A stretch of 64,000 nt of DNA. It comes from Brooklawnia cerclae (GTDB lineage: Bacteria; Actinomycetota; Actinomycetes; Propionibacteriales; Propionibacteriaceae). This document shows, one piece after another, positions 30,490-35,357 of the stretch. The position numbers and the translations under genes are program-made. The stretch covers positions 1,984,001 through 2,048,000 of the forward strand of contig NZ_JAAMOZ010000001.1 in NCBI RefSeq assembly GCF_011758645.1, in the 5' to 3' direction. Below the pieces are notes generated by a model that was not told the DNA's origin, ran no database searches, and saw only the letters and a list, made by a program, of their open reading frames with translations. Each line of letters opens with the position of its first letter. Within the stretch, counting starts at the first letter, position 1.

Positions 30490-31944
30490 TCAGGATGCCT
30501 GCTCACGCGCGGGTGCGATCTCCGCCCCGCCGCTCGCGTCCACGGGTCGTCTCGAAAGCACGCCCTCGTCCAGCACGAACTCGACGATTCCGCTCCCGGT
30601 CTCCCGCGCGCGGGGTGCCTGCACAACCGGCAGGTCGCGGCACCCGTCGCCCGGCGCCAGGCCATCGCCGGGCCCGTCGCAGTCGGTCGCGCAACTCCGC
30701 GCATCGAGCGAGAGACGCGGGGGTCGTCCGCCGAACACGTCGGTGAGAGCCTCACCGACCGCTCCTTCCGCCTCGTACACGCTGATGCCGCATCCCCGGA
30801 GCACTGTGCGGGCCGTGCCGCCCAACTGGTAGCAGATGAGCGCCCGGCAGTCCTGCAGCAACCCGGCCAGATGCGTCCAACGTGCCGCTCCCCCGCCGAT
30901 CGGCGGGACGACGCGCTCCTCCACCAGCTGCGGAGTGATGCGTCCACCGAGGTTGGCGTTCTCATACACCAGCAGTCGGTCAGCGCCCCCGAGGGTCTGG
31001 TCGAGCGTCTTCCCGTCCTGGCTGCACACCGCGATCCGGGTACGCACCCGGCCGATCGTCCTCGCGGCGAACAGCCTGGTGATGGCCTCGTCGTCGTTGT
31101 CATCCCCCAGAAGCCCGACGGCGTCGGCCCTGCATCGCTGGCAGTGGGTCATCTGCTGCACGAACTCCGCCGCCTCCGAGCGCGCCCTGGCAACCTCGTG
31201 CGCCGTGGGGGCGTCCAGCTCGCCGAAAGGTGTGCCCTCGACCGGATACAGCGCGATCTCGTTCATGGTGTCCACGCCCAGCTCGGACGCGAGCCTGGCC
31301 ACGTCGGCGACACCGTCGAGGGTGATCCCCGGCACCAGCACGGTGTTCACCTTCACCGTGATGCCACGGTCCTTCAGCCCCCGGATCGACTCGATCTGCC
31401 GTGCGAGAAGGAGCTCGCCGGCCTCTCGTCCCCGATAGACCTTGCCACGGCCATCCCTGACCCACCGATAGATCCGGCCACCCACCTCCGGATCGACCGT
31501 CGACATCGTGATCGTCACATGGCTGATGCCGAGTTCGGCGATGTCGTCGAGGTGGGCGGGAACCCCCAGACCGTTGCTCGACACACACAGCAGCAGGTCG
31601 GGGTGACGCTGCTTCACCAGTCGCAGCGTCCTCAGTGTCTTGTCCACGTTCGCGAACGGATCGCCCGGCCCGGCGATACCCACGACGGCCAGGGCGGGTA
31701 TGTCGCGACGCACCATGTCCACATAGTCGGCAGCCTGTTCCGGAGTCAGAAGGGTGGACGACACCCCCGGCCGCGACTCGGCCACGCAGTCGAACCGTCG
31801 GTTGCAGTAATTGCACTGCACGTTGCACCGTGGCGCGACCGGCAGGTGGACGCGTGCCGCTCGCGCCCGTGCAGCCTCGTCGAAGCAGGGATGTTCGGTC
31901 AGCGGCACCCGCGTCGGGGTCGCGGGAGCGATGGACGTTGTCAC
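30490..31944 (-). CDS. nifB: Nitrogenase cofactor biosynthesis protein NifB (radical SAM plus NifX-like domain)
   Basis: 484 residues. Radical-SAM part: RVHLPVAPRCNVQCNYCNRR with the C40-x3-C44-x2-C47 cluster; nearby C20 (TEHPCF) and C53 (RFDC) correspond to ligands for the additional K-clusters; VVGIAGPGDPFANVDKTLRT; LLLCVSSNGLGVP; SHVTITMSTVDPEVGGRIYR. The C-terminal third is a NifX-like domain (IAVCSQDGKTLDQTLGGADR ... CRALICYQLGGTARTVLRGC), then a Cys-containing tail. NifB converts two 4Fe-4S clusters and SAM into the 8Fe-9S-carbide core of nitrogenase cofactors. GTG start with GAGGAG upstream. It follows nifH by 47 nt. All hallmark residues are present, so it should be active. Confidence 0.93.
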   Translation of the reverse strand: MTTSIAPATPTRVPLTEHPCFDEAARARAARVHLPVAPRCNVQCNYCNRRFDCVAESRPGVSSTLLTPEQAADYVDMVRRDIPALAVVGIAGPGDPFANVDKTLRTLRLVKQRHPDLLLCVSSNGLGVPAHLDDIAELGISHVTITMSTVDPEVGGRIYRWVRDGRGKVYRGREAGELLLARQIESIRGLKDRGITVKVNTVLVPGITLDGVADVARLASELGVDTMNEIALYPVEGTPFGELDAPTAHEVARARSEAAEFVQQMTHCQRCRADAVGLLGDDNDDEAITRLFAARTIGRVRTRIAVCSQDGKTLDQTLGGADRLLVYENANLGGRITPQLVEERVVPPIGGGAARWTHLAGLLQDCRALICYQLGGTARTVLRGCGISVYEAEGAVGEALTDVFGGRPPRLSLDARSCATDCDGPGDGLAPGDGCRDLPVVQAPRARETGSGIVEFVLDEGVLSRRPVDASGGAEIAPAREQAS

Positions 31945-31991
31945 AGTTGGCTCCTCATGGGTGGGTTGGAGGTGGGTGATGCCGGCCGCGC

Positions 31992-32816
31992 TCAGGCCGC
32001 GCCGAGCATGCCGTGTTCGAGCAGCAGCCCCTCGAGAGTGTCGGATTCCATCGGCTTGGGCACCACGTACGTCGAGTTCTGCTCGATGGCGCGGGCGAGC
32101 GACCGGTATTCATCGGCCTGCTTGCAGGCGGGATTCCACTCGATGACCGTCTTCCTGTTGATCTCCGCGCGCTGCACGTCGTTGTCCCGGGGGACGAAGT
32201 AGATGAGCCGCGTTCCCAGTTCCTGAGCGAAGTGGGCGATCAACTCGTACTCGTTGTCGACGTTGCGGCTGTTGCAGATGATCCCGCCGAGCCGCACAGT
32301 GCCGGAGGTGGCGAAACGCTTGATGCCCTTGCAGATGTTGTTCGCCGCATACATCGACATCATTTCGCCGGACGCGACGATGTAGATCTCCTCGGCCTTG
32401 CCCTCGCGGATCGGCATGGCGAAACCACCGCACACCACATCGCCGAGCACGTCGTAGAAGACGTAGTCGAGGCTCTCGTCGTAGGCTCCCAGACGCTCGA
32501 GCAGATTGATCGACGTGATGATTCCGCGTCCGGCGCAGCCCACTCCGGGCTCCGGGCCTCCCGATTCGACGCAGAGTGTGTCGCTGAAGCCGTTGGCCCG
32601 CACATCCGGCAGCCGCACGGACGACCCGGACAGACGCAATGTGTCGAGAACCGTCTGCTGGGCGAGTCCACCCAACAACAGGCGGGTCGAGTCTGCCTTG
32701 GGATCACAGCCCACCACCATCACCTTGCGGCCCATCTCGGTCAACGCCGCCACCGTGTTCTGCGTGGTGGTGGACTTGCCGATCCCGCCCTTACCGTAGA
32801 TGGCTATCTTTCGCAT
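31992..32816 (-). CDS. nifH: Nitrogenase iron protein-type ATPase NifH
   Basis: 274 residues from [20 protein letters not shown]. It has the deviant Walker [10 protein letters not shown] (8-16), [14 protein letters not shown], both 4Fe-4S ligands (C94 in GVGCAGRG; C129 in [10 protein letters not shown]), Arg97 (the ADP-ribosylation site of NifH), and [18 protein letters not shown]. Similarity to true NifH is strong throughout; it is closer to NifH than to BchL, ChlL or CfbC. It is an ATP-driven electron donor to a nitrogenase-like partner and is also needed for cofactor maturation. The ATG at 32816 has GAAGGGG upstream. No nifD/nifK partner is encoded in this window. Confidence 0.93.
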
Positions 32817-34302: not shown

Positions 34303-34307
34303 CGTGT

Positions 34308-35357
34308 TCACCCCACCAGCACTTCGGTCGGACGCGCCGCCGGGTCGTAGCGGTCGGCGATCTCGGCGAGCCCGTTGGCCCGCAGCCATTCCGCGTTGTA
34401 TTCACGGGCCAGGTAGTCGCGGCCGTGGTCGGCGGAAAAGGCCACGATGACCTCGCCCGGCTGGGCGACGGCTGCCAGGTCGAGGGCGATCGCCACGCTC
34501 AGCACCGAGGTCAGGCCGAGCACCAGGCCCTCGCGGCGGGCCAGTTCCCACCCGAAGGCGATGACCTCGGCCCTGGTGCGGTACTCGATGCTGTCGATCA
34601 CCGTCGTGTCGATGTTGTGAGCCCATTTCTCCTCGGTCAGCGGCTTGGTACCCGCGATCACCTCGGCGAGGTCGGTGCTGTAGTTGGGCCCCTCCACGAA
34701 GTCGCTGGCCACCACCCGGACTCCCGGGTTCTGTTCCTTCAGATACCGACCGGTGCCGCTCACCGTGCCTCCCGTGGCGACGGCCGCGATGAACGTGGAC
34801 ACCTTTCCCTGTGTCTGATGCCAGATCTCCGGGCCTGTGGACGCGTAGTGAGCGTCCGGGTTGTCCGGTGTCGCGGACTGGTGCGACCACCACGTGGACG
34901 GGTCCTCGTCCGCGTGATGAGCCGCGATGGCCTCCCAGTTCTCAGCGTCGTCGAACGGCACGTCCGCGCGTCCCTGGAGGATCTCCACACCGAGGAACGT
35001 CAGCAGGTCGGCCTTGCCCTTGGCGAGGGAGGGATTGGCGACGATGGTGACCGGGTGTCCGCCGGCGATACCTGCCAGGGCGAAGCCCAGCGCGGTGTTC
35101 CCGGCGCCGTTGTCGATGATCCGGTCTCCGGGCTTGAGTTCCCCCGACAGCTCCGCCTGGCGGACGATGTTCACCGCGATCCTGTCCTTCGACGATCCTC
35201 CGATGTTGTAGTGGTCGAGTTTGACCCAGACCTCACCGGGCAGATCCTCCGTGACGGTGTTCAACCGCAGGAGCGGGGTATTTCCCACCAGCTCAAGCAG
35301 TCGCCCATAGCTGCGGGCTTCGTCCGATGACGGAGATGAAGAATTGCTGACAGTCAT
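34308..35357 (-). CDS. Cysteine synthase-like PLP enzyme with altered substrate loop
   Basis: 349 residues of the fold-type II (OASS/CBS) PLP family: LLELVGNTPLLRLNT, the Schiff-base lysine K57 in GGSSKDRIAVNIV (usually SVKDR), and the glycine loop ATGGTVSGTGRYLKE. The substrate-binding loop, normally TSGNTG, is NGAGNTA at 83-89. This points to a substrate other than O-acetylserine, or to a different nucleophile. First gene of the run that continues through the GST-like, NifX, nifH and nifB genes; AAAGG lies 6 nt before the ATG. In context a role in sulfur transfer or C-S bond chemistry is plausible but not shown. Confidence 0.85.
   Translation of the reverse strand: MTVSNSSSPSSDEARSYGRLLELVGNTPLLRLNTVTEDLPGEVWVKLDHYNIGGSSKDRIAVNIVRQAELSGELKPGDRIIDNGAGNTALGFALAGIAGGHPVTIVANPSLAKGKADLLTFLGVEILQGRADVPFDDAENWEAIAAHHADEDPSTWWSHQSATPDNPDAHYASTGPEIWHQTQGKVSTFIAAVATGGTVSGTGRYLKEQNPGVRVVASDFVEGPNYSTDLAEVIAGTKPLTEEKWAHNIDTTVIDSIEYRTRAEVIAFGWELARREGLVLGLTSVLSVAIALDLAAVAQPGEVIVAFSADHGRDYLAREYNAEWLRANGLAEIADRYDPAARPTEVLVG

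Follow-up and report, generated by a model that had tools for sequence, protein, structure and literature searches.

The closest described counterpart of the system considered here is the methylthio-alkane reductase (Mar) of Rhodospirillum rubrum, MarBHDK, which reduces methylthio-alkanes to methanethiol plus a hydrocarbon, in which marB and marH lie beside marDK and which, according to PMC12552129 (also the source of our Mar residue numbering), holds an [Fe8S9C] cluster and has its MarHDK structure deposited as 9FMG. A second nitrogenase-like enzyme, the isethionate reductase Isr (IsrBHDK) of Rhodobacter capsulatus, cleaves carbon–sulfur (C–S) bonds to assimilate organic sulfur, with a radical S-adenosylmethionine partner, and IsrD is described as being without two of the three P-cluster cysteines and without equivalents of Cys275 and His442, and IsrB as not NifB-like (PMC11423573). 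Candidate cysteine-codon leaders have in turn been noted ahead of Mycobacterium and P. acnes cys operons (PMC1262725). Here we analyze a 64,000-nucleotide window of the Brooklawnia cerclae genome (3.79 Mb, 98.5% complete; contig NZ_JAAMOZ010000001.1, here C1:1984001-2048000), in which a single minus-strand operon encodes, in this order, a CysK-like enzyme, a glutathione S-transferase (GST) of the Xi class, a NifX-like carrier, NifH and NifB (Table 1). This operon most likely serves a sulfur-scavenging nitrogenase relative encoded elsewhere on the chromosome, and we put a probability of roughly 0.6 on a reading in which it supplies the parts for a Mar-like C–S reductase whose genes are split between loci and controlled by sulfur.

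A preliminary description of the window had reported five contiguous minus-strand genes with genuine nifH and nifB among them, and both statements hold: every open reading frame (ORF) lies where it was placed, and the two nif-type products exceed the cut-offs of their NCBIfam equivalog models (NifH, 442.4 bits against TIGR01287 with a cut-off of 394.35; NifB, 365.4 bits against TIGR01290 with a cut-off of 343.65). The CysK-like protein is nearest to cystathionine β-synthase (CBS) and cysteine synthase, with the putative CBS Rv1077 as its top match in the Protein Data Bank (PDB), and falls below the cut-off of all 25 NCBIfam models listed, while the top PDB matches of the GST are 4fqu (a putative glutathione transferase), YqjG and GST-Xi entries. 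The same description had found no NifDK or NifEN, which is correct for the window, where none of the eight PF00148 matches of the genome falls, and incorrect for the genome, in which these eight make up nifDKEN, anfDK and an orphan DK pair in the nifHDKENB, anfHDGK and orphan loci; AnfG, a protein of 117 amino acids (aa) with no model match at 1e-60, is named from its position. Three full NifH proteins are encoded (nif, window and anf), two further PF00142 matches being fragments of 28.9 and 24.2 bits, and two NifB proteins (window and nif cluster), such that the Fe-only system has its own H and no B of its own, and the window alone has a full H and B beyond those of the nif and anf loci. As to sulfate reduction and OAH sulfhydrylase, the whole genome holds four PF01507 matches over the cut-off, the best at 38.4 bits, and three TIGR01326 matches, none over the cut-off.

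The orphan D subunit is 49% identical to its Mar counterpart, and orphan D and K score 468 and 446 bits against the Mar structures 9fmg/9d9u, with the next-best structures at 123 and 91 bits. Like Mar, orphan D keeps in the alignment three cysteines at P-cluster positions (C60, C84 and C150) and the cofactor ligands C261, R419 and H420, which correspond to Mar Cys270, Arg428 and His429; Mar His375 and Trp195 are kept as well, and three cysteines of orphan K align with 9d9u_C at P-cluster positions. An assignment of the pair to Isr is excluded by these retained cysteines together with Cys270 and His429. The pair may therefore work like Mar as regards its clusters. At the active site, however, Mar Cys73-Gln74, His194 and Phe199 are replaced by Gly-Ile, Ile and Ile, and among relatives with Arg428 the loss of Phe199 is, save one, peculiar to orphan D. 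It probably acts on a substrate somewhat different from that of R. rubrum Mar. Like Mar, the pair would depend on a maturase of the NifB type and on an Fe protein, and has a CysK gene beside it: it is followed by a NifX-like gene, a CysK-like gene and an ABC transporter of the amino-acid type, the permease of which has a cystine permease as its top model (130.7 bits, below the cut-off of that model), and is preceded by a ROK-type regulator. Unlike Mar, no H or B match adjoins it in the genome-wide searches, and the candidate H and B lie 155 kb away behind a leader of their own.

Relatives of orphan D were gathered from one genome per species across 84,980 species, and the best 80 of 278 (79 loci) were kept. 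The 97 D genes at these loci comprise 40 with His194, 53 without it and four without Arg428. In a quick tree of 80 rows (22, mostly near-copies, dropped from 99, and three own proteins added) R. rubrum MarD sits in a 27-row clade with His194 (SH-aLRT 100) and orphan D belongs to the sister clade, 36 rows that lack His194 (SH-aLRT 97), the two joined at 94, with further non-His194 rows branching earlier. With neither the Cys73-Gln74/His194/Phe199 pocket nor a place in the R. rubrum MarD clade, orphan D is not classed here as a true Mar. Its own clade holds gut Treponema, Firmicutes, Coriobacteria and others, whose DK clusters (for example L032-L058) include its nearest relatives at 57-70% identity (L033, L032 and L055 being closest) and share with it NifX-like and CysK neighbors. 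To our knowledge these clusters are uncharacterized, and we know of no substrate for the clade. An NifH-type H occurs at 15 of the 53 non-His194 D genes; in the group nearest orphan D (L032, L033, L034, L035 and L055) it adjoins D in all four loci with upstream sequence, L033 having none and the H of L034 being a 69-bit piece at a contig end, and at the Coriobacteriaceae locus L035 an X-B-H arrangement adjoins DK. Unlike the window operon, these clusters have an H of a different group and no GST of the window type. Four of the gut genomes (L055, L058, L048 and L060) carry an additional DK set whose D is without Arg428 and forms a separate clade (SH-aLRT 100). Among 197 family genomes a MarD-like D is found in this genome only, 12 others giving matches of 28-32% identity, which argues for horizontal acquisition.

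The H and B of the window have a different history. The window NifH is 81% and the window NifB 71% identical to its counterpart in the nif cluster of the same genome, and unlike MarH the former is a true NifH, scoring 422 bits against Clostridium pasteurianum NifH and 267-268 bits against MarH 9fmg_D. In a tree of 51 H proteins (58 hits, with seven dropped as cut or without a P-loop, of which L032 was re-added by hand, repeats from L127, L128, L011 and L012 dropped and two reference NifH added) it groups with seven family NifH at 100/99, separate both from the group formed by the 22 NifH-type proteins at DK loci (91/91) and from the MarH type; in a tree of 41 B proteins (43 hits, 42 with the motif, L035 added by hand and repeats from L127 and L128 dropped) window B groups with ten family NifB at 100/99. 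These trees rule out a Mar-type H or B that arrived together with DK. The suggestion in the preliminary description of a Mar-kind reductase encoded elsewhere is partly supported, by the Mar-like pair and by the cysteine leaders shared between the DK operon, the window operon and an importer; H and B are nif-lineage paralogues and not of the Mar type. Their origin may be either duplication in this lineage or transfer within the family, the approximately unbiased test of window and own copies as sisters against intrafamily transfer giving p values of 0.373 (H) and 0.097 (B).

Such ancestry is what would be expected if H and B were extra copies for the Mo or Fe-only nitrogenase, keeping NifB-co and Fe protein supplied under sulfur shortage, for example, with the Mar-like DK drawing on the nif-cluster H and B. 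We consider this explanation unlikely, though the Fe-only system, with its own H and no B, lends it some weight, as does the absence of a nearby B from 46 of the 53 non-His194 D genes. An H is found in 13 of 198 family genomes, and the 12 others show no second full NifH beside AnfH (G172 has NifH plus AnfH; at contig ends G131 and G135 show additional partial hits, not all classed in this comparison, that of G135 being 92% like the nif-cluster NifH of the present genome) and no second intact NifB, the sole second copy being the truncated, frame-broken piece in G033. Within the family genomes searched, a MarD-like gene and a second full NifH and NifB are confined to this genome. A different nitrogenase-like pair, in which a divergent NifH-like gene (46-47%) adjoins a D-like gene (28%), occurs in a further family member (L151, G049:C24).

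Descent from nif also raises the prospect that H and B are what is left of a nif operon, duplicated or transferred, that has lost DKEN, with sulfur neighbors by chance and no dedicated function. The two genes are 47 bp apart in nif order, the order H-D-K-E-N-B being that of the nif cluster here and in G022 and G033; the truncated second nifB of G033 offers a precedent, and a tRNA-Ala gene lies 1.5 kb away. Both frames are nevertheless intact and of full length behind a leader with a promoter-like box, and the ratio of nonsynonymous to synonymous substitution (dN/dS, NG86) is 0.10-0.15 for window H against six family NifH and 0.18-0.24 for window B against four family NifB (that of L116 left out), similar to that between nif copies, with dS of 0.78-1.3 near saturation. 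Both genes thus appear to evolve under purifying selection, which argues against decay and makes a functionless remnant improbable. Window H has 12 substitutions at sites invariant in the seven other family NifH. Four of them equal the commonest residue in the 22 Mar-associated H (own NifH, 0 of 6; G022, 0 of 2), and convergence on Mar-associated NifH-type proteins was considered and not used, such substitutions being few in number and for the most part conservative. Acidic residues are lost through four of the 12, at positions 65-72, a stretch near the docking face for DK.

The evidence for a sulfur role comes from upstream. ORFs with cysteine codons at their ends stand before the window operon, an ABC importer in the window, cysE, a PF03601 gene and the DK operon. 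Experimental work by Canestrari and colleagues from 2020 reportedly treats cysteine leaders of actinobacteria, leaderless according to its title; the present ORFs resemble the actinobacterial cys leaders in being short, with cysteine codons near the stop and sulfur genes following, and differ in standing ahead of nifH-nifB and of a nitrogenase-like DK operon. The window-operon leader shares its terminal TGTTGTCGTTGA with the cysE and importer leaders, and the exact sequence occurs four times in the genome, three times at these leader ends and once without an ORF. A -10-like TAGTCT stands 6 nucleotides (nt) before its ATG, as in the leaderless type, and such a box is predicted for four of the five leaders (window operon, importer, cysE and PF03601 gene). 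The cysE leader of the same genome serves as a positive case for the cysteine-codon criterion. Across the genome TGYTGYCGNTGA has 35 matches against 11 for a control, and CCC-tailed leader ORFs number one in the window (importer) and one at the DK operon (L009), with none in ten window shuffles. The leaders had first been spotted by eye on comparing upstream regions, the promoter regions sharing few 12-mers. In a wider test we took all candidates of both pattern scans (57 distinct of 58 TGYTGYTGYCG matches and 34 of 35 TGYTGYCGNTGA matches read) with an in-frame ATG or GTG, giving 21 distinct ORFs with 37 starts. TANNNT lies 6-7 nt before the ATG in 6 of the 21, compared with 29 of 11031 background ATG/GTG starts (an earlier count on ATG alone gave 15 of 3908), a frequency that predicts roughly 0.1. 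Behind these six leaders stand cysE, the importer, the window operon and the PF03601, DUF1847 and P5CR-like genes. No riboswitch from Rfam was found over the window, L009, L011 and L013, which gave one tRNA.

A shortage of cysteine probably switches on the window operon. The 1.5 kb upstream of nifH and of anfH contain no CC-tailed ORF, and this difference in leaders speaks against extra copies for either nitrogenase. The preliminary description had allowed that a complete nif set elsewhere might make this cluster an ordinary nif satellite. The complete nifHDKENB set does exist, and the cysteine-type leader leads us to reject the satellite as a full account, despite the nif ancestry. Conservation of the operon in related genomes, which it had proposed as a check, was not seen: the window gene order appears in no other genome among 197 and 198 family genomes.

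From this anatomy we infer the partnership of window H and B with the DK pair, its regulation and its substrate as follows. Scarce Cys-tRNA would stall the ribosome on the leader, lifting attenuation and raising expression of both operons. The window NifB would then make the NifB-co ([Fe8S9C]) precursor, which NifX-type proteins would carry to DK for uptake as the cofactor with no need of NifEN; the window NifH would supply ATP-driven electrons, DK would cleave the C–S bond of an organic sulfur compound, and the CysK-like enzymes would fix the released sulfur into cysteine. As a general rule, nif genes are off when nitrogen is sufficient. Duplication of nifH and nifB combined with cysteine control would free the reductase from nitrogen control, and a nitrogen-sufficient cell with its nif genes off could still run it. 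We give even odds to the full proposal, namely that nif-derived NifH and NifB paralogues, now under cysteine attenuation, feed in trans a horizontally acquired C–S reductase that belongs to a sister clade of Mar with a remodeled active site and probably acts on another substrate.

Several observations weigh against the pairing of window H and B with the Mar-like DK and against its control by cysteine. The pairing is known from one genome only, and the nif-derived H and B have no ancestral tie to Mar. For 36 of the 53 non-His194 D genes no H (>100 bits) lies within 6 kb, and for 46 no B does, some of these genes being at contig ends, which suggests that supply in trans is common and that nif-encoded H and B may serve them. 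As to the leaders, that of the window operon ends in just two Cys codons, CC-tailed ORFs alone occur in the window at chance level (9 against 4-13 in ten shuffles), and TGYTGYTGYCG is not enriched genome-wide (58 matches, with 97 for the reversed pattern; of the 57 matches read, 8 resemble leaders), this reversed control and the wider -10 test pulling opposite ways. The DK leader is without a -10 box at leaderless spacing and has GGAGG before its ATG, the DUF1847 and P5CR-like genes behind boxed leaders are not plainly sulfur genes, and no unusual fold is seen in the RNA that follows the leader of the window operon (z -0.76). Finally, a GST of the glutathionyl-hydroquinone reductase type is seen at none of the 97 D genes. 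This last point also favors a scheme in which the operon acts without any DK-type partner, NifB-co or the Fe protein being used by another of its products, as does the presence in the operon of a NifX-type carrier, a GST and a PALP enzyme; we regard that scheme as very improbable, since the genome has an orphan DK that keeps the cofactor ligands and stands behind a cysteine-codon leader, and window H and B have retained the character of ordinary NifH and NifB.

The ABC importer belongs to the same leader class as the window operon and is followed by a PanE-hydrolase fusion gene; it may, as the preliminary description proposed, take up the compound on which the reductase works, and it is the leader type alone that speaks for a sulfur role. 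Elsewhere in the window a type I restriction-modification locus (15883-23351) comprises HsdR and HsdM with a RhuM-family protein between them, 25697-26245 encodes an Imm5-like putative immunity protein (PF21805), and the tRNA-Ala (GGC) gene at 28875-28948, near the 3' end of the operon, is a possible integration site, beside which the ORFs at 27414-28235 and 28242-29378 have no Pfam match.

Table 1. Positions of the features discussed; plain coordinates are window positions, except for the truncated nifB, and C1 coordinates refer to the contig.
Feature	Location	Strand	Details
NifB paralogue, C-terminal NifX domain	30490..31944	-	TIGR01290 above cut-off; PF04055 + PF02579
NifH paralogue	31992..32858, probable start 32816	-	TIGR01287 above cut-off
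NifX-type single-domain carrier, 136 aa	32904..33314	-	PF02579, 67.1 bits
GST, Xi/glutathionyl-hydroquinone reductase class, 365-aa ORF	33292..34389, probable start near 34302	-	GST_N_2/GST_C_2
CysK/CBS-like PALP enzyme, 355 aa	34308..35375	-	PF00291, 171.9 bits
Window-operon leader ORF MDTNHASRRSTAIGGNSLCARGGTVNVLRSCCR*	35618..35719	-	242 bp before CysK-like gene
PanE-hydrolase fusion	35892-37679		after importer genes
SBP_bac_5-type ABC importer	37711..43072	-	same leader class as window operon
Importer fused ATPases	37711-39531		
Importer permeases	40384-41679 and 39393-40433		
Importer substrate-binding protein	41369-43072		
Importer leader ORF MIVSEIAHPATIGGAYAHVPVCSSPGCCCR*	43206..43298	-	-10-like TAGTGT 7 nt before ATG
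Orphan DK pair	C1:1856.6-1859.5 kb		155 kb from window operon
nifHDKENB	C1:1897.7-1905.8 kb		NCBIfam cut-offs; NifN best to NifEN/NifN models, below cut-off
anfHDGK	C1:2665.4-2669.6 kb		NCBIfam cut-offs, except G
Boxed cysteine-codon leader before cysE	L227 (G000:C1:1290241)		cysE = SATase_N plus hexapeptide
Boxed cysteine-codon leader before PF03601 gene	L190 (G000:C1:2567757)		
Boxed cysteine-codon leader before DUF1847 gene	L170 (G000:C1:1124675)		
Boxed cysteine-codon leader before P5CR-like gene	L202 (G000:C4:101354)		
Truncated second nifB	L125 (G033:C57) 15101-15885		pieces 67% and 56% identical to window NifB

Among the matches listed from the open-licence PMC literature, and as far as their available text goes, no paper joins nitrogenase-like enzymes, NifH/NifB paralogues and cysteine leaders. 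If the pairing of window H and B with the Mar-like DK is correct, a single nitrogenase cofactor pathway would be supplying three enzymes in nature, gene duplication having divided its regulation, in a bacterium equipped with both Mo- and Fe-only nitrogenases, and cysteine-leader control would extend to a nitrogenase-like system. Whether NifH and NifB of nitrogenase descent can serve a C–S reductase would become directly testable, and the large, mostly gut-derived Mar-like clade with its changed active site would be relevant to gut sulfur cycling and hydrocarbon release.

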